This document shows positions 5,336 through 43,377 of a stretch of DNA of 64,000 nt, piece by piece (the first letter of the stretch is position 1; the number at the start of each line of letters is the position of its first letter). The DNA is taken from the NCBI RefSeq assembly GCF_000169175.1, contig NZ_AAWS01000023.1:1-64000 (forward strand). Direction: 5' to 3'. Origin of the DNA: Microscilla marina ATCC 23134. GTDB lineage: Bacteria > Bacteroidota > Bacteroidia > Cytophagales > Microscillaceae. The notes under the pieces were generated by a model. The model searched no databases. It was not told where the DNA came from and was given only the letters and a program-made list of their open reading frames with translations. The translations under genes were made by a program, and so were the position numbers.

Positions 5336-6117
5336 TTGACTAATGAGCGAGTGGTATATCCGTACTGTTGTAAAATATGTTGGGCAGCAGGAGTAAACAA
5401 AAATTTTTCAAAGGCTTTGGCATTCTCCAGGTTGCGTTGTACCTCGACTTTGTGTTGCTTGCCTTTAGGTAAGATTACAGCAATGCCTTGGGCTATAGGC
5501 GGGTACAAAGTAGGGGCGATATCAATCCATTTGCCCTTGTTTTTGAGCCGAGGCGACAACACCACCGCTTTGGCGGTAAACCCAACGTCGGCAGTTTGAG
5601 AAATAATAAATTGATTGGTTTGGGCAATGCTTTCGCCGTATACCAGCTTCGGTTTTATTTGGTCATACACGCCTTGTTGTTTGAGCACTGCCACAGCCGC
5701 TGCTCCATAAGGGGCTGTTTTGGGGTTGGCTATTGCCAAATGGCGAATGCCTTGCTGTGTGAGCGTACCCAGGTGGAGCTTAAGGTCAGGTTTTTGAGTC
5801 CAAAGCACCAGTTTGCCCCAGGCATAAGTTTTGGGGGCACTACTCAAGCCTGCTTTATACAAAGTCTGAGGGTATTTCATGTCTGCAGATACCAATACTT
5901 GATAAGGAGCTCCCTCTTTTATTTGTGCGGTGAGCTTTCCTGAAGACCCCACCACTACCCTGCAGTCAATTTTAAACTTCTGTTTGAACGCTTTGGTAAG
6001 TGCTTGCATAGCAAACTGCATATTGGCAGCCGTGGCAATGGTGATGCCCTCGTAAGGCTTGGTTTGGCAACCAGTAAAACATACCCAAAGCAGGCTTATG
6101 AAAGTGATTTTCTTCAT
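5332..6117 (-). CDS. modA: Molybdate-binding lipoprotein ModA
   Basis: 261 residues, first gene of the operon. Residues 1-17 form a lipoprotein signal ending CFTGC, so the binding protein is tethered at the membrane, the usual replacement for a free periplasmic protein. The mature part follows ModA: TIATAANMQFAMQALTKAF (substrate loop with Ala/Ser/Asn contacts), VVGSSGKLTAQIKEGAPY, ADVGFTAKAVVLSP, and a C-terminal AFEKFLFTPAAQHILQQYGY. It captures molybdate or tungstate and delivers it to ModB. Transcription probably starts in the 6118-6380 gap. Confidence 0.93.
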   Translation of the reverse strand: MKKITFISLLWVCFTGCQTKPYEGITIATAANMQFAMQALTKAFKQKFKIDCRVVVGSSGKLTAQIKEGAPYQVLVSADMKYPQTLYKAGLSSAPKTYAWGKLVLWTQKPDLKLHLGTLTQQGIRHLAIANPKTAPYGAAAVAVLKQQGVYDQIKPKLVYGESIAQTNQFIISQTADVGFTAKAVVLSPRLKNKGKWIDIAPTLYPPIAQGIAVILPKGKQHKVEVQRNLENAKAFEKFLFTPAAQHILQQYGYTTRSLVK

Positions 6118-6202
6118 CTATTATTCTCTTCTTGGTGATAGGCTTAGGAATGGTGTAAAAATAAAGTTCTATAGTAACGCCAAAATATTTTGTTGTCAGG
6201 AG

Positions 6203-6241
6203 AGGCAGGGCAATATCCAGTGGATATTGAGCCAGCCCTGC
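6203..6241. repeat. Long palindrome upstream of modA
   Basis: CAATATCCA-G-TGGATATTG is a perfect 9-bp inverted repeat (6211-6229), nested in an outer GCAGGGC/GCCCTGC pair. It sits about 95 bases upstream of the modA start. It could be an operator or a mobile-type hairpin; it does not look like the E. coli ModE site. Confidence 0.55.
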
Positions 6242-6379
6242 GGGACGGCGTCATAGCAGCGCTACGTCAAGTTTTTTTAACGAATTCTGTCAGCGAAAGA
6301 TGACGTTAAAAATGTAAATTTATTTTGGTACTATTCCTTATAATCGCTTGCCATCACGAGCCCGTTGCTTATAGTATCA

Positions 6380-6596
6380 ATACTATGCAGTGATTTTAGT
6401 CAAAGTTGTTTGCTGGTTCTCAGTTATTTACGAATTTAAAAACTATTTAATTGGGTGTTTGGGCGTAAAACCGACACACTTTTAAAAATAAATTGAGTAA
6501 GCAATCTTAATATAAAATACTGGTTTACAGTATTTAACAAGGTAAACATTTACTCGAATCAGCTATCGACTATCGACTAAATACTATGGACTATTG
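6380..6596 (+). repeat. About 210-bp direct repeat, copy 2
   Basis: Direct copy of 4071-4280, located 5' of the modA operon, with a duplicated TATCGAC near its end. The copies contain no ORF of their own that looks real. Together they could recombine and excise or amplify the intervening mod genes. Confidence 0.9.
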
Positions 6597-6735
6597 AGTA
6601 TAATATACACCGCAACAATCGCTTTCTTATGACAAAGCACTTGCAAAACTACAAATATCAAGTAGATAAAAAATAGCTTGGGCTTAAGCAATAGCAATGA
6701 GCGGCTCTCTCATTCGTAATTTAAAACGCTTCGTC

Positions 6736-7590
6736 CTAACCCATTTGAAGAATAAAATCCACCAACTTTTGTTCACCTGTCATGCCAATTTTTTTCTTGA
6801 TTCTATAATGATGGGTAATCACACTGGACGCCGAAATATTAAAAATATGGGCAATTTCTTTGTTCGACAAACCAATTTTCAAATAAGCACAATGCCTTTG
6901 GTCATTCAGGCTCAAGCCAGGGTAACGTTGCTGTAAATCTTCAAAAAAATGAGGGTGTACATTCTCAAAATGCAAGCGAAAAACATCCCATTCATTGTCG
7001 AGACTCAAGTTACTTTTAATCAATTTTTCTATTTGTCTTACTTCTTGTTTGAGCTCTCCCCGGAGCTTATAAGCCACTGTTTGTACCTTCTCTTGAATCG
7101 CATGGAGCAATTGATTCTTTTGTGTAAGCTGAATTGTTTGTGTACTTAGCTCCCGGTTTTTTTGGTCTTCAATAATGACCTGTTGCCGTTTGATGGTGCG
7201 CATTGCCTTATAGGTACTCAATGCTGAACCAATGCGGGCATATAGCTCCAGGTGGTTTACTGGCTTACGAATATAATCCACTGCACCAGCTTCAAAAGCT
7301 ATCTGAAGGTTTTGATGGTCAGTGTTTACTCCAGTAATAATAATTACCGGAATATCGGCAGTACTGGGCTGGGTTTTTAACTGTCTTATCAGCTCAATGC
7401 CATTCATTAAAGGCATGTCCCAATCGGTAATGATCAGGTCGGGCAATCGCTTTTGTAGCACCCGCATAGCCACCAGGCCATTGGGTGCACTTAAAAAATG
7501 GTAATGCTTGTTTTTGCTTTCCAAATAGTGGATCACAACCTGCAAATTATCCTTATCATCGTCTACCACCAAAATAGTGTCTTCGTTCAT
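6736..7590 (-). CDS. Response regulator with REC domain and LuxR-type HTH
   Basis: I start at ATG 7590 (MNEDTILVVDDDK) because the frame upstream of it is low-complexity; ATG 7596 is an equal alternative. The product has 284 residues. REC domain 1-120: acidic triad DDD at 10-12, phospho-acceptor Asp56 in ITDWDMP, Thr85, Lys108 in YIRKP. A coiled linker (about 130-190, rich in Q/K/E) follows. The C-terminal LuxR/GerE-type HTH at about 225-284 contains SLNDQRHCAYLKIGLSNKEI and the recognition helix ISASSVITHHYRIKKKIG. It should be a DNA-binding transcription factor. No kinase gene is adjacent, so the partner is unknown. Confidence 0.88.
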   Translation of the reverse strand: MNEDTILVVDDDKDNLQVVIHYLESKNKHYHFLSAPNGLVAMRVLQKRLPDLIITDWDMPLMNGIELIRQLKTQPSTADIPVIIITGVNTDHQNLQIAFEAGAVDYIRKPVNHLELYARIGSALSTYKAMRTIKRQQVIIEDQKNRELSTQTIQLTQKNQLLHAIQEKVQTVAYKLRGELKQEVRQIEKLIKSNLSLDNEWDVFRLHFENVHPHFFEDLQQRYPGLSLNDQRHCAYLKIGLSNKEIAHIFNISASSVITHHYRIKKKIGMTGEQKLVDFILQMG

Positions 7591-7740
7591 AGGCATTATG
7601 GGTACTAAAACATCATTTAAATGGCTGTGTTTTTTTGGGGCGACATATTTCAAAACAGCCTCCCCTTGAATCAAACCCAGGTTTTTGGATAAAGTTTTAA
7701 CAATGTAACAGTGAAGCAAAAAAATAGATAAAACCAGCGT

Positions 7741-8149
7741 TTAGTAACAGTTAATTTACATGTTTTTGGGGAGTTTTGTACTCTCCCCAGCTTTTAACTT
7801 CGTTGAGCTCAGCATAGTAAAACTGTAGCTTCGGTTTTTCAAAAGTACTGTCATCGCCTCAGCTCGTGTCTCCACCATAGCCGTCAGGTTAAGAGAAGTA
7901 TAATAAAAAATGTAGAAAATTCACTCAAAAATACCGTCACCGCCTCAGCGAGTGTCCCCACGCGCTGATCGAATCGCCAAAACTTGGTCACTGAAAGATG
8001 TTTTACGGAGTGAAAAAAAAATTAGCCTGACGGCTATGGTGTCTCCACGAGCTGACTGGAACTCTGAAAAACACTATTTACAGGCGCTACGACGAGGCGA
8101 TTTGTGAAGACACAAACCGAGGCGAAAAAATAGTAGGGTAGAGTAAGCC
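7741..8149. repeat. Patch of repeat fragments between the regulator and the S9 remnant
   Basis: It holds three fragments of repeat family A: GTGTCTCCAC at about 7868, GTGTCCCCACG near 7948 and GTGTCTCCACGAGCTG near 8040. It also holds an inverted pair, CACCATAGCCGTCAGG near 7876 and CCTGACGGCTATGGTG near 8027, enclosing about 135 bases. No gene is seen. Confidence 0.6.
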
Positions 8150-24246: not shown

Positions 24247-25227
24247 ATGCGATTAAGAAAAAAACCTGTATTGTGTAATTACTATGTCACCTATCGTTGC
24301 AATGCACGTTGTGGGTTTTGCGATATTTGGGAGCGTCCCTCTCCTTATGTTACCCTCGAAAACGCCCAACGCAATTTTGAAGGCCTTAAGCGCCTGGGAG
24401 TAAAGATCATTGATTTTACCGGGGGTGAACCTTTACTGCATAGACAGCTCCCCGAATTACTGGAAATGGCGCAAAATCTGGGGTTCATTACCACGGTGAC
24501 CACCAATGGATTGCTATACCCCAAACAAGCCGAAAAACTGCAGGGTAAGATAGACATGTTACACCTGTCGCTTGACTCGCCCAATAAAGCCGAACACGAC
24601 AAAAGCAGAGGTGTAGCCTGTTATGATTTTGTAATGGAGTCGATCAAAATAGCCAAGACGTTGGGCGAACGCCCCGATATTTTGTTTACTGTGTTTGAGC
24701 ACAACGTAGAGCAAATTAAAGAAGTGTACCACAAGGTATGCTTGCCCAATGACTTACTGCTTATCTTAAACCCGGTGTTTGACTACAACAACGTAGATAC
24801 CGGGCTACAGCTAAGCCCCCAAAGCCTAAAGGCACTCAAGCAATGGAGTAAGAAAAAATATGTATACCTCAACGAGGGTTTTATCGCCTTGCGGCAAGAT
24901 GGTGGCAACCACATCGACCGCCCGGTATGCAAGGCAGGCAGTACTACCTTGGTCATTTCGCCCGATAACAAACTGGTATTGCCTTGTTATCATTTGGGGC
25001 TAGAGGAGGTGCCCATCAATGGCGATTTATACAATGTGTACCGCTCAGAAAAAGTACAAAAACTCATTGCATTGGAAGGACGACTACCCGAATGTGAAGG
25101 ATGTGTAATTAATTGCTATATGCAACCCTCGTTTGCGGTAGAACTTAACAAGTATTGGTGGAAGGCATTGCCCAGCACGCTTAAGTATAACTACCTCAAG
25201 GGCACTTGGAAGGCTATGTTTCGGTAG
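24247..25227 (+). CDS. Radical SAM protein with SPASM-like C-terminus
   Basis: 326 residues. The radical SAM cluster motif is CNARCGFC (CxxxCxxC, about 18-25), followed by the SAM-binding DFTGGEPLLH (GGEP at about 59-62) and the second-half strand LHLSLDSPN. The C-terminus has a further cysteine set, CKAGSTTLVISPDNKLVLPC then CEGCVINC, as in SPASM/Twitch auxiliary 4Fe-4S domains. The family performs radical chemistry on peptides, lipids or cofactors, and the substrate is not evident. No short peptide gene was found beside it; a repeat block begins 60 bases downstream. It is distinct from the cysteine-poor SPASM protein at 39.5 kb. Confidence 0.88.
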   Translation: MRLRKKPVLCNYYVTYRCNARCGFCDIWERPSPYVTLENAQRNFEGLKRLGVKIIDFTGGEPLLHRQLPELLEMAQNLGFITTVTTNGLLYPKQAEKLQGKIDMLHLSLDSPNKAEHDKSRGVACYDFVMESIKIAKTLGERPDILFTVFEHNVEQIKEVYHKVCLPNDLLLILNPVFDYNNVDTGLQLSPQSLKALKQWSKKKYVYLNEGFIALRQDGGNHIDRPVCKAGSTTLVISPDNKLVLPCYHLGLEEVPINGDLYNVYRSEKVQKLIALEGRLPECEGCVINCYMQPSFAVELNKYWWKALPSTLKYNYLKGTWKAMFR

Positions 25228-39324: not shown

Positions 39325-39363
39325 ATAAAAAAAGGCGCAAAAACCCAAAGGGTCTTTGAGCCT
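39325..39363 (-). terminator. Terminator downstream of the RiPP operon
   Basis: Minus strand: AGGC-T-CAAA-G-ACCC-TTT-GGGT-T-TTTG-C-GCCT and then seven T. Three 4-bp blocks pair perfectly around single mismatches. It lies between the SPASM gene and anmK and marks the operon's end. Confidence 0.88.
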
Positions 39364-39501: not shown

Positions 39502-40542
39502 TTAAGGGTTGGACCAACTCGCGGTGTAAGGATCATAATTGCACTTTGAGGGTTTAGAATATACATTTTCTGGGTTTTGAATGAATGCTCGGCAATCAGT
39601 ACAAATATGTCTAAATTCACAGTCTTTACAAATTTCTACCTGATTTTTGTTAATCTCCCAAAGTTTTTTGAAATCCTTTTGTAACATCGCCTGATGCAAC
39701 GATACTTGAGCAATGTTGCCAAAAGATTCGGTTAATGAGGGACAGTTTTTGATTTCTCCCTGGGCATCAATGCCAATTTTTTTGTTAAGACAAGTATTAA
39801 ACTGGTGAGACTCTGTCATTGTTTTGGTATCAATGCTAAAATAAAAAGGGTCAATCACTCCACAATGATCAGCCGATGTAATCTCATAAGTAAGCAAGAT
39901 CATTTGCCCCAGCGAAAAGTCGGTACCAGGTTTCATCACAGGTCTTATGTCTGATTCTGGAGCCCCATGAAGCACCAACTTATGAATGCGTGCATTAGAA
40001 ACAACCAAAGCCTCAGCGGCTGGTATATCAAGCAAATTACCGTACTTTACCACCAGCTCTATTGACTTAAACCTACTTCTTTTGGTGCTTTCTAGGTGAT
40101 GTTCTAAGGTGTCTTTTGACACATCAGTATAGTACCTCAACTGTATGTGGTCGCAGCCTAACTCTTCGAGCTGGGCAAATATTGCTTTGAAATCATGGGT
40201 TGACGCCGCGTCTATGTCAATAATTGCATTGTTGATACTAGAATAGGTCTGCCAGGTCATGTCCAATGGTGGGAAAAACTCTGGAGTATCTGTCCAAAAA
40301 CCTAACTCGTTTTCAACCAAAAACTCAAAATACTCATCCAGCGTTTCGTCATAGTCATATACTTCTTGTATTTCACTATAGGTTTGGTGCTGGTGCTCTG
40401 TAAGTATGGTGTACAGCGAGTTTGGAATAAGCTTTATTTCGCCCCGTTGCATATCACATATAGTACTTCTTACGGCCCCTTTAACAGCTACACAACAGGC
40501 AAACAGCTTGAAGTACATCTGTGCTTGTTTAGGATTGGTCAT
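39502..40542 (-). CDS. SPASM-domain peptide maturase of a grasp-with-spasm system, no radical SAM motif
   Basis: 346 residues. The C-terminal part carries a SPASM-type cysteine set: C251, C267, then C305, C308, C314, C317 and C334 (CLNKKIGIDAQGEIKNC, CKDCEFRHICTDC, KPSKC), expected to bind auxiliary 4Fe-4S clusters. The N-terminal part looks like a degenerate radical SAM barrel, but its only early cysteines are C16, C17 and C29, so the CxxxCxxC that holds the SAM-cleaving cluster is missing. This combination, next to an ATP-grasp ligase, is what the grasp-with-spasm name describes. It may act as a substrate-recognition or chaperone partner. It overlaps the 80-aa gene by 14 bases. Confidence 0.85.
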   Translation of the reverse strand: MTNPKQAQMYFKLFACCVAVKGAVRSTICDMQRGEIKLIPNSLYTILTEHQHQTYSEIQEVYDYDETLDEYFEFLVENELGFWTDTPEFFPPLDMTWQTYSSINNAIIDIDAASTHDFKAIFAQLEELGCDHIQLRYYTDVSKDTLEHHLESTKRSRFKSIELVVKYGNLLDIPAAEALVVSNARIHKLVLHGAPESDIRPVMKPGTDFSLGQMILLTYEITSADHCGVIDPFYFSIDTKTMTESHQFNTCLNKKIGIDAQGEIKNCPSLTESFGNIAQVSLHQAMLQKDFKKLWEINKNQVEICKDCEFRHICTDCRAFIQNPENVYSKPSKCNYDPYTASWSNP

Positions 40543-40771
40543 TGTTTAGTACTTTTGGGTCAAAAATTTTTGAAACAGGTTTATTGAGTGGGTATACATC
40601 ATAAAAATCAGTCTGATGTAAATCAGAGGTTTCATTTTTACGAATTTCATGGTTTTCCTCTGCGTTAGAGGGCATACGTTGCGCCAGTTGGATATAAGGA
40701 GGGAGTGTTTGGGCGGTTTCTACACCAAAAATCTTTTCTAATCTTGGAAAAACAGTTTCTTTTTTTTTCAT
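40529..40771 (-). CDS. 80-aa protein between the two maturases: second precursor or recognition factor
   Basis: 80 residues, overlapping the SPASM gene start by 14 bases, so translation is coupled. Residues 5-18 (ETVFPRLEKIFGVE) resemble the F-x-R-L/F-L-E helix by which microviridin leaders dock to their ATP-grasp ligase. The C-terminal half is rich in possible donors and acceptors (ETSDLHQTDFYDVYPLNKPV, then SKIFDP), as expected of a graspetide core. There is no GG or cleavage motif. It may be a precursor in its own right, or a separate leader/accessory protein used in trans. It is clearly unlike the six tandem precursors. Confidence 0.65.
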   Translation of the reverse strand: MKKKETVFPRLEKIFGVETAQTLPPYIQLAQRMPSNAEENHEIRKNETSDLHQTDFYDVYPLNKPVSKIFDPKVLNNDQS

Positions 40772-40907
40772 ACGTTTTATTTAATTCAATACTCCATAAT
40801 AATTTTATATTGAAATAAGGTTTTGATAATCAGTGGTTTATGTCTGTTTGAGCATTTGTAATAAAAGCATCAATACTCACATCGGTTTCTAAAACAGGGT
40901 TTAGCAC

Positions 40908-40935
40908 CGATATTCATTGGCATCTAAGGACTTGA
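40908..40935 (+). repeat. Repeat family C copy (ACCGAT hairpin)
   Basis: CACCGATATTCATTGGCATC then TAAGGACTTG. Same family as 51166, 58880 and 58922, with a degenerate copy near 25613. Confidence 0.75.
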
Positions 40936-40971
40936 AGCTTATTGCTTAAATCTTGCCCCTGCCCTAGCAGT

Positions 40972-41952
40972 TTATGCGTTGCTGTCTGGTTGGTTGTTGA
41001 GCAAATAGTCCGCAATTTTTTTCTCCAGATAATAGTTACAAGGAAGCGATACCATACCAAATTGCCCGACGGGGTTTACTTCCAAGAAATAGAATTCATT
41101 GTCTTGAGTAACCATAAAATCCAGCGAACCAGTATTAAGTTGAAGCTCATTCATTAACTTATCAATTTTTTCTTCTAAGTCTTGTGGCAGTTGATAAGGC
41201 ACCGTACGGTTTGGTTTGGTCATGTTATATACCCTAAAATCTACCGCTGTTTGTTGGTCTAACTGAGAGAAAATAGCCATGCTATAACATTTTCCATCCA
41301 AATAAAACACCCTCAATTCATACTTCTTGACAATCTTTTCTTGCATCAACGCCGGAAAGAAATTTTCTGGCAAGGTTTGGATAAAATCTTGGGTTACCTC
41401 AGTAGTATAAGAGCAATAAGTAGCATCATCAAAAGATATAATGGCCACTTCCGACAAAGCCTTGGTGATTACTTCCAAGTCCAGGTTTAAGGCATCTTCT
41501 TTGGCAGTTAGTACAAAAGCCTGAGGAATGGTAAGCCCTATTGCTTGTGCCTGGTGCTGAACAATGAGTTTGTTCAGTGAACTTTTAAAATAATTGCCCA
41601 GGTTTCTTTTTTGGGAAAGTAAAAAAAACAAATATTCTTTTACAATCTCCCATTCTTGAGCCAGTTCTGCCGAAATATCTACATGATTTGTATCAAGTTT
41701 CATAGAATGAGCAGGGTGGTCAGCAAAAAAAGATTGACCTTTTCGGTGCCAAAAGGCTACAATGTCTTTAAAATATATTTTTTGTTGGTTTACCTGAATA
41801 AATGAGCGGTCGGCTCCTTGGCCTGATACAATGTGTAACTGTTGGAGTGCATTTTCTTCATCAACCCTTATCACGGTACCACCTTTTCCATCAATCCAGT
41901 CAATGATGTCATTGGTAGAGCTGTCTATTTTACGGGTAGCTATTACAATCAT
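40972..41952 (-). CDS. ATP-grasp peptide ligase of a grasp-with-spasm (graspetide-like) system
   Basis: 326 residues, the usual size of MdnB/MdnC-type ligases, which activate an Asp or Glu side chain as acyl-phosphate and join it to Thr/Ser (ester) or Lys (amide) in a precursor peptide. The N-terminal domain starts MIVIATRKIDSSTNDIIDWI and has the family-like FWHRKGQSFF. The ATP-grasp core includes PALMQEKIVKKYELRVFYLD and NTGSLDFMVTQDNEFYFLEV, with E291-V-N293-P294 providing the metal ligands. It lies 245 bases downstream of the last tandem precursor gene and 200 bases upstream of the 80-aa gene. Confidence 0.9.
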   Translation of the reverse strand: MIVIATRKIDSSTNDIIDWIDGKGGTVIRVDEENALQQLHIVSGQGADRSFIQVNQQKIYFKDIVAFWHRKGQSFFADHPAHSMKLDTNHVDISAELAQEWEIVKEYLFFLLSQKRNLGNYFKSSLNKLIVQHQAQAIGLTIPQAFVLTAKEDALNLDLEVITKALSEVAIISFDDATYCSYTTEVTQDFIQTLPENFFPALMQEKIVKKYELRVFYLDGKCYSMAIFSQLDQQTAVDFRVYNMTKPNRTVPYQLPQDLEEKIDKLMNELQLNTGSLDFMVTQDNEFYFLEVNPVGQFGMVSLPCNYYLEKKIADYLLNNQPDSNA

Positions 41953-42196
41953 GATTTCTTTATTGGCTAAGTACAGTACACTGTAAAAATAACCTACCTT
42001 ATTAAAGTAGCATCAAATATATGATTTCTTTGGGTTTTGTTGGCAAGTTACTTTTGAGCGTATGAAGTAATTTGTGGGAAAGTGCTAGAGTTAAAAAGAT
42101 GGTAGTCACCCCAAACAGAGGTTGACTACCATCAACTCGTAAACATTCAAGCAACAACCAATGGTTGGATCAAGTCGTTGCCTGATACAGACTGTA

Positions 42197-42358
42197 TTAT
42201 ACTACGTCTCCGTCTTTTACGTGTACAGGGCCACCTGGGTAGTCATTATAAATGGTTTTGATACCGCCTTGGTATCCACCTTTACAGCCTTGCTTTTGGA
42301 TGTTGTTCAGCTTTTGGTTAGAAAACAAATCGCTGTTTAGTTTACTTAATTTTTTCAT
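42197..42358 (-). CDS. RiPP precursor 1 (53 aa, double GG, Cys)
   Basis: Translated by hand. Leader MKKLSKLNSDLFSNQKLNNI then QKQGCKGG, core YQGGIKTIYNDYPGGPVHVK then DGDVV. Compared with copies 2-5 it has a four-residue insertion that adds a Cys and a second GG, so leader cleavage could occur at either GG. It is the copy nearest the ATP-grasp gene. The core has Thr, Tyr and Lys donors and Asp acceptors suited to side-chain lactone or lactam formation. Confidence 0.85.
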   Translation of the reverse strand: MKKLSKLNSDLFSNQKLNNIQKQGCKGGYQGGIKTIYNDYPGGPVHVKDGDVV

Positions 42359-42409
42359 AATAATTAGATGTTTTGTTTGTTTTGTGATGCGTGTTATGGT
42401 TAAAATAGC

Positions 42410-42559
42410 TTATACAGCGTCCCCGTCTTTTACGTGTACAGGACCGCCTGAGTAGTCATTATAAATGGTTTTGATGCCACCCTTGATGCTTTGTTTCTGG
42501 ATGCTGTTCAGTTTTTGGTTAGAAAACAAATCGCTGTTTAGTTTACTTAATTTTTTCAT
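42410..42559 (-). CDS. RiPP precursor 2 (49 aa)
   Basis: Leader MKKLSKLNSDLFSNQKLNSI then QKQSIKGG, core IKTIYNDYSGGPVHVKDGDA then V. It is part of a tandem set with a period of about 202 bases. It has Ser where copies 1, 3 and 5 have Pro, next to the internal GG. It is preceded by the same AT-rich leader sequence as the other copies (AACATCTAATTATTATG). Confidence 0.85.
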   Translation of the reverse strand: MKKLSKLNSDLFSNQKLNSIQKQSIKGGIKTIYNDYSGGPVHVKDGDAV

Positions 42560-42612
42560 AATAATTAGATGTTTTGTTTGTTTTGTGATGCGTGTTATGG
42601 TTTAATAATAAC

Positions 42613-42762
42613 TTATGCAGCGTCCCCGTCTTTGATGTCTACCGGGCCACCTGGGTAGTCATTAAAAATAGTTTTGATGCCACCCTTAATGCTTTGTTTT
42701 TGGATGCTGTTCAGCTTTTGGTTAGAAAACAAATCGCTGTTTAGTTTACTTAACTTTTTCAT
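42613..42762 (-). CDS. RiPP precursor 3 (49 aa)
   Basis: Leader as in copy 2; core IKTIFNDYPGGPVDIKDGDA then A. It is the most diverged of the five similar cores: Phe replaces Tyr, Asp-Ile replaces His-Val, and the last residue is Ala. Thr, the NDY Asp, the Lys and both Asp of KDGD are kept, which marks them as the likely cross-linking residues. Confidence 0.85.
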   Translation of the reverse strand: MKKLSKLNSDLFSNQKLNSIQKQSIKGGIKTIFNDYPGGPVDIKDGDAA

Positions 42763-42813
42763 AATAATTAGATGTTTTGTTTGTTTTGTGATGCGTGTTA
42801 TGGTTAAAATAGT

Positions 42814-42963
42814 TTATACAGCGTCTCCGTCTTTTACGTGTACAGGGCCACCTGAGTAGTCATTATAAATGGTTGTGATGCCGCCCTTGATGCTTTGTTT
42901 CTGGATGCTGTTCAGCTTTTGGTTAGAAAACAAATCGCTGTTTAGTTTACTTAACTTTTTCAT
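42814..42963 (-). CDS. RiPP precursor 4 (49 aa)
   Basis: Leader as in copy 2; core ITTIYNDYSGGPVHVKDGDA then V. The Lys after the first Ile is replaced by Thr, so this Lys is not essential to a shared cross-link, whereas Thr-Ile, NDY and VKDGD are kept. Reading frame, length and upstream sequence agree with its neighbours. Confidence 0.85.
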   Translation of the reverse strand: MKKLSKLNSDLFSNQKLNSIQKQSIKGGITTIYNDYSGGPVHVKDGDAV

Positions 42964-43015
42964 AATAGTATAGATGTTTTGTTTGTTTTGTGATGCGTGT
43001 TATGGTTAGAATAGT

Positions 43016-43165
43016 TTATACAGCGTCTCCGTCTTTTACGTGTACAGGACCACCTGGGTAGTCATTATAAATGGTTTTGATGCCGCCCTTGATGCTTTGT
43101 TTCTGGATGCTGTTCAGCTTTTGGTTAGAAAACAAATCGCTGTTTAGTTTACTTAACTTTTTCAT
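43016..43165 (-). CDS. RiPP precursor 5 (49 aa)
   Basis: Leader as in copy 2; core IKTIYNDYPGGPVHVKDGDA then V. This is the consensus of the group; copies 1-4 differ from it by a few residues each. Its upstream region has ATACTATTATG instead of the AATTATTATG of copies 1-3. Confidence 0.85.
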   Translation of the reverse strand: MKKLSKLNSDLFSNQKLNSIQKQSIKGGIKTIYNDYPGGPVHVKDGDAV

Positions 43166-43215
43166 AATAGTATAGATGTTTTGTAATAGTGAATAAAATA
43201 TAAATTAAAGTGTAC

Positions 43216-43377
43216 TTAGTCTTGAACAAATACTGTGTACATAAAAGTAACCCCACTGTTGGTTTGTCTGGGCTCGCTTTTAGCTGTCATGTCGCCACCT
43301 TTGATGCTTTGCTTCTGGATGTTGCTTAACTCTTGGTTAGAAAACAAATCGTTGTTTAGTTTACTTAACTTTTTCAT
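43216..43377 (-). CDS. RiPP precursor 6 (53 aa, unrelated core), first gene of the operon
   Basis: Leader MKKLSKLNNDLFSNQELSNI then QKQSIKGG is clearly shared with copies 1-5, but after GG the core is DMTAKSEPRQTNSGVTFMYT then VFVQD, with no similarity to the others. It is rich in Thr/Ser and has only three acids (one Glu, two Asp). Leader conservation with a replaced core is the expected sign of RiPP diversification. It is the most upstream precursor. Confidence 0.85.
   Translation of the reverse strand: MKKLSKLNNDLFSNQELSNIQKQSIKGGDMTAKSEPRQTNSGVTFMYTVFVQD

Follow-up and report, generated by a model that had tools for sequence, protein, structure and literature searches.

A grasp-with-spasm graspetide locus of Microscilla marina ATCC 23134 with tandem precursors and a SPASM-domain protein lacking the radical SAM motif

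The window analyzed here comprises 64,000 nucleotides of the Microscilla marina ATCC 23134 genome (contig NZ_AAWS01000023.1, positions 1 to 64,000) and harbors, as judged from sequence, a locus of the known grasp-with-spasm system. Nine genes in a row, all located on the minus strand, encode six precursors sharing a leader, an ATP-grasp ligase, an 80-amino-acid protein and a SPASM-domain protein. A preceding sequence-only reading of this DNA had recognized the system correctly, and all genes were found in the order, on the strand and at the coordinates that it had given. The profile hidden Markov model check proposed there was run, and the ligase, the SPASM protein and the precursors each matched their own grasp-with-spasm NCBIfam model (TIGR04192, TIGR04193 and TIGR04194, respectively). 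Refinements obtained in this study concern the SPASM partner, which is predicted to be non-radical, an odd first precursor and a seventh, trans-encoded precursor. With a probability of roughly 70%, we propose that the ATP-grasp ligase makes rings in the precursor cores, that the SPASM protein serves as a non-radical, leader-binding partner, that the 80-amino-acid protein, a member of the LPL family, assists the ligase and that export is encoded elsewhere in the genome.

The SPASM-domain protein (39502..40542, minus strand; 346 amino acids) scored 344.2 bits against TIGR04193 (cut-off 175) and 29.1 bits against the SPASM-domain model TIGR04085 (cut-off 27). Based on these models, an AlphaFold2 prediction and fold matches, it is composed of an RRE domain, a degenerate radical S-adenosylmethionine (SAM)-like barrel and the SPASM domain. 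The motif CX3CX2C was found neither in the window protein nor in any of 44 distinct family members, and the more permissive pattern C-x(2-4)-C-x(1-3)-C was likewise found in none of them within the first 220 residues. Moreover, the window protein lacks a GGE-type SAM-binding motif, and one isolated GGD was observed among the 44 members. In the AlphaFold2 model computed with the family alignment (pLDDT 90.4, pTM 0.85), the first barrel strand (residues 105-110) is followed by a seven-residue, cysteine-free loop at the place where radical SAM enzymes hold the cluster loop. Residues 9-89 (40276..40518, minus strand) form an RRE-like winged-helix domain with a predicted leader-binding function; as determined by VIA-align, this part resembles the RRE domains of TbiB1 (Z 8.7, root-mean-square deviation 3.0 over 78 residues), TruD (Z 8.0) and MccB (Z 7.0). 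Residues 95-340 resemble SuiB, TigE, anSME and PqqE, with Z values of approximately 10.7-11.3 and root-mean-square deviations of 4.4-7.5. When solved structures were searched with SPASM family sequences, only weak matches to unrelated proteins were obtained.

The family alignment assigned eight cysteines of the SPASM protein (39541..39864, minus strand) to auxiliary cluster I (C227, C251, C267 and C317) and auxiliary cluster II (C305, C308, C314 and C334), and their order is the canonical one of the two auxiliary clusters, as in anSME. Of the 44 members, 29 carry all cysteines of cluster I and the other 15 carry none of them, these two states being separated by a single supported branch of the family tree; the cluster II set is complete in 43 members. 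Such an all-or-none loss fits real metal sites. Taken as a model-based interpretation, the SPASM protein is most plausibly an iron-sulfur (Fe-S) scaffold derived from radical SAM proteins and equipped with a predicted leader-binding domain, rather than a radical enzyme. It would act as a non-radical Fe-S partner, and its ancestor would have been a SuiB-like RRE/radical SAM/SPASM enzyme. SuiB-type peptide cyclases show the same domain order (RRE, barrel, SPASM) and provided the best fold matches of the model, whereas the grasp-with-spasm SPASM family is devoid of CX3CX2C and is paired with an ATP-grasp ligase.

A radical SAM reaction of the SPASM protein was considered and rejected, given that CX3CX2C is absent from all members and the GGE-type motif is missing. 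A related proposal, in line with the earlier annotation "SPASM family radical SAM enzyme", holds that the protein follows the ATP-grasp ligase as a genuine second modification enzyme and introduces C-C, C-O or thioether bonds; this appears quite improbable. The proposal agrees with the description of this family as a SPASM radical SAM enzyme by Makarova 2022 (PMC8939145), with the radical-SAM-SPASM-like fold, with the conserved auxiliary cysteine sets and with the three cysteines held by the remote seventh precursor; however, no member offers a CX3CX2C-like cysteine triplet in the barrel, and the six local cores are free of cysteine. The description given by Carter 2026 (PMC13097080) is cautious in this respect. 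Furthermore, the NCBIfam name of TIGR04193 does not include "radical SAM", and its curator may have been aware of the missing site. Alternatively, the auxiliary Fe-S clusters could catalyze a non-radical redox step, or act as an iron or oxygen sensor switching peptide modification. The retention of cluster II in nearly all and of cluster I in most members exceeds what a structural scaffold would obviously need, but no redox partner gene is encoded in the locus, and cluster I is dispensable, since one third of the family lacks the whole set. Such a redox or sensory role is therefore regarded as unlikely, if somewhat less so than that of a second enzyme.

The putative ring-forming enzyme is the ATP-grasp ligase (40972..41952, minus strand; 326 amino acids). 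It scored 498.7 bits against TIGR04192 (cut-off 230), and the solved structures closest to it in a phmmer search were the graspetide synthetases MdnB, MdnC and CdnC, with a full-length match to MdnC/CdnC. The DFR motif is located at residues 238-240, and D278, E291 and N293 are present. In a set of 44 distinct ligases encoded in grasp-with-spasm loci, the residues K164, Q204, R214, D278, N293 and G296 do not vary, and the DFR residues D238 and R240 as well as E212 and E291 are kept in at least 95%. The graspetide type assigned to the ligase in the sequence-only reading was thus supported by its family model, its nearest structures, the DFR motif and the conserved catalytic positions. This conservation and the structural relatives support ring formation, as far as can be deduced from sequence. 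ATP-grasp ligases also include tagging enzymes, and the ligase is weakly similar to RimK; it could be imagined to ligate intermolecularly or at a terminus, for instance by RimK- or PGM1-like amino acid tagging, with no rings being made. This is highly improbable, because the ligase scores by a wide margin as a member of the dedicated graspetide-type family, aligns over its full length to MdnC/CdnC and faces cores carrying invariant donor and acceptor residues.

All six precursors (minus strand) matched TIGR04194 at approximately 59 bits (cut-off 33; A1, 58.5 bits) and PF14406 at 64-84 bits (cut-off 25; A1, 64.2 bits), and the common leader ending in KGG is present in each of them. A2 (43016..43165, core IKTIYNDYPGGPVHVKDGDAV), A3 (42814..42963, core ITTIYNDYSGGPVHVKDGDAV), A4 (42613..42762, core IKTIFNDYPGGPVDIKDGDAA) and A5 (42410..42559, core IKTIYNDYSGGPVHVKDGDAV) consist of 49 amino acids, whereas A1 (43216..43377) and A6 (42197..42358) consist of 53. 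A6 possesses two GG sites, its core being (YQGG)IKTIYNDYPGGPVHVKDGDVV. The repeated core with its Thr, NDY, KDGD and GGPV elements, which the sequence-only reading had described, was observed in five of the six precursors, which share the core IKTIYNDYPGGPVHVKDGD with the pattern I-K/T-T-I-Y/F-N-D-Y-P/S-G-G-P-V-x-x-K-D-G-D. A1 combines the common leader with the unrelated core DMTAKSEPRQTNSGVTFMYTVFVQD, and this deviant arrangement was also found in the genome of a sister Microscilla species. For A6, comparison of the core with its orthologue in that species revealed five synonymous and no nonsynonymous codon differences.

In nine like cores from the two species, T3, K16, D7, D17 and D19 are invariant, and position 2 is occupied by either K or T, each of which could serve as a donor. 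Candidate donors in the five like cores of the window would thus be K/T2, T3 and K16, with D7, D17 and D19 as candidate acceptors. The likeliest arrangement would be a hairpin with the PGG turn at its bend, position 2/3 being paired with D17/D19, and a K16-D7 ring is a likely alternative. With a loss of 18.01 Da expected per bond, the calculated [M+H]+ of the A2 core is 2258.145 in linear form and 2240.135, 2222.124 and 2204.113 with one, two and three bonds, respectively. The sequence-only reading had also described a ring pattern without counterpart. This part did not hold in the same way as the assignment of ligase type and system, because it expresses ignorance and is not shown to be new: no product of this graspetide group is described in PMC8939145 or PMC13097080, and sequence cannot give connectivity.

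The predicted third biosynthetic component is encoded between ligase and SPASM gene (40529..40771, minus strand; 80 amino acids), and the SPASM gene start at 40542 overlaps its end at 40529. Small open reading frames of at least 35 amino acids were detected at this position in 43 of 44 loci, a few of them probably being spurious, and an LP-h motif together with a Y-K-P-I-S motif at the end recurs in many of the encoded proteins. With LP at residues 23-24 and KPVSK at residues 64-68, the window protein matched a profile of 24 same-position small proteins in a profile-profile comparison (probability 95.5%, E 1.4e-8). It is therefore a member of the LPL family described by Makarova 2022, who had already suggested that LPL meets the ligase (PMC8939145). 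The P-h-h-x-h motif usual in other graspetide leaders is absent from the local precursor leaders and present in the LPL protein as PYIQL, and the microviridin leader of the same genome carries it as PFFAQF.

Modification is envisaged to start with binding of each precursor's common leader by the N-terminal RRE domain of the SPASM protein. By homology, the ligase would then phosphorylate Asp side chains of the core and join them to Thr and Lys side chains. The LPL protein might supply the P-h-x-h motif missing from these leaders and thereby activate the ligase, this being the most speculative step. Finally, the leader would be cut after KGG, and the product would be exported by a C39-peptidase transporter encoded elsewhere. 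A published precedent for such a partner is MirC, which features an RRE-like domain and is required for ring formation (PMC13097080). A more specific and tentative version, for which we see a possible but less than even chance, describes grasp-with-spasm as a graspetide synthetase made of three parts: a dead radical SAM protein, composed of the RRE and a non-catalytic Fe-S SPASM part, would recognize the leader, the P-h-x-h motif of the LPL protein would activate the ligase in trans, and the precursors may be scattered in the genome. In this version, the functions usually joined in one leader-ligase pair might be split over three proteins. Some points weigh against the proposed division of labor. 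The conserved auxiliary Fe-S cysteines could indicate a redox role instead of a structural one, and the ring pairing is a guess from the pattern of residue variation. Moreover, the P-h-x-h likeness in the LPL protein is short and loosely defined, and the AlphaFold model of the LPL protein alone is not confident (pLDDT 68.8).

A seventh precursor of 65 amino acids, featuring the same leader and the core QRIPLTCRLIEVTDSHDGIDPRLECIQNGDSC, is encoded on another contig of the genome (C13:183588-183782, minus strand) and has an orthologue in the sister Microscilla genome (G433:C234:10348-10542). Its core differs from the local cores and holds three cysteines. Between the two orthologues, the core shows six synonymous and two nonsynonymous codon differences; the predominance of synonymous changes suggests a maintained gene. 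No ligase gene was found beside it, and the genome holds only a single ligase above the TIGR04192 cut-off and a single TIGR04193 protein; trans modification by the cluster described here is therefore the simple reading, and the same enzymes probably also serve this precursor. That it represents a relict without current role seems rather unlikely: it has no biosynthetic gene alongside, and an extra insertion lies upstream of it in this genome compared with the sister, but the frame is intact in two species and the codon differences of the core are mostly synonymous. It is located downstream of genes for 237- and 248-amino-acid proteins of unknown family and a 1469-amino-acid protein with a sub-threshold match to the core of extracellular contractile injection systems. 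A second distant precursor was detected in another genus (G210:C1:4368862-4369020), 436 kb from the nearest SPASM gene. Among 39 leader matches in that genus, 37 have a SPASM gene no more than 10 kb away, another is the copy at 436 kb and for one the distance was undetermined, indicating that trans-encoded precursors are uncommon.

Comparison with published systems placed the locus in branch 5 of Makarova 2022 (PMC8939145), with which it shares the ligase, SPASM and leader families, the gene order, the GG-type leaders and the position of the LPL protein directly upstream of the SPASM protein. It differs in its tandem precursors with one leader (five to six, whereas the other loci examined usually possess one) and in the extra precursor elsewhere in the genome. 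The system probably also corresponds to graspetide group 14 of Carter 2026 (PMC13097080), in which the ATP-grasp ligase always occurs with a SPASM-domain protein, this co-occurrence being the only feature compared. Rosaritide (group 21, MirB and MirC; PMC13097080) is similar in that the ligase is accompanied by a conserved partner with an RRE-like N-domain, but MirC is peptidyl-prolyl isomerase/SurA-like and not a SPASM protein, and the MirB ligase belongs to another family (TIGR04187). Microviridins (MvdC/MvdD) are related through homologous ATP-grasp ligases and a GG-type leader end, and they differ in that their leader motif is of the PFFARFL type, their core is TxKYPSD and both SPASM and LPL proteins are lacking. 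This also applies to the canonical microviridin cluster of the same genome (contig C58, locus coordinates 5398-7777), which encodes a precursor, MvdC and MvdD; the precursor has a PFFAQFL leader and two TMKYPSD cores. Two more MvdD-like ATP-grasp genes (L116:6245-7300 and L117:7424-8428) score below the curated cut-off and have no recognised precursor alongside.

The term "complete", previously applied to this cluster, proved too strong, as neither a leader peptidase nor an exporter is encoded in the locus. Proteins with a C39 peptidase occur at three other places in the genome; two are complete ABC exporters, one of them of NHLM type. These exporters (L118:7366-9579 and L119:6100-8295) could process GG leaders in trans. 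The NHLM-type exporter, which scores above cut-off, adjoins a protein resembling an NHLP leader. A secreted "cluster 23" protein is present in almost all branch 5 loci (PMC8939145); judged without the profile of that family, no candidate was found between 39236 and 44070. Downstream of the SPASM gene, the terminator proposed to close the cluster corresponds to a hairpin with a T run (39325..39363, minus strand; stem 39358-39338), which folds better than 199 of 200 shuffles. A scan of the region yielded 3 terminator-like hairpins, with 3.2 expected by chance, so that its role as terminator rests on its position. A true radical SAM protein (PF04055) is encoded at 24247-25227 of the window, approximately 14 kb from the cluster, and is probably unrelated to it.

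Regarding distribution, the genome (9.77 Mb, 135 contigs) shares the cluster with an uncultured Microscilla record of the same genus, which contains five precursors and a 95% identical ligase. This sister locus was the only one recovered by a contig scan with the ligase; a match in a Tissierellia metagenome-assembled genome covered 30 residues and was not used. Outside this genus, matches to PF14406 were scarce and weak: it was detected in 2 of 291 genomes of an order-level sample, both of the genus Microscilla, and in the phylum sample it was strong in this genome only, with G210 at threshold and a third genome below it. PF14406 derives from the Iyer 2009 analysis, according to Makarova 2022 (PMC8939145), and we infer that loci of Microscilla like the present one served to build the precursor models. 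Within the class, grasp-with-spasm exceeded the cut-off in 28 of 395 genomes sampled, and within one genus it was found in 45 of 59.

The system is thus widespread in Bacteroidota, yet PMC8939145 and PMC13097080 report no product. The six precursors and the remote one represent a ready substrate set with predicted masses. Should the SPASM protein act as a non-radical partner, its usual annotation as a radical SAM tailoring enzyme would be wrong family-wide, as would the thioether and C-C products predicted from that annotation, and reconstitution would be expected to succeed without SAM.

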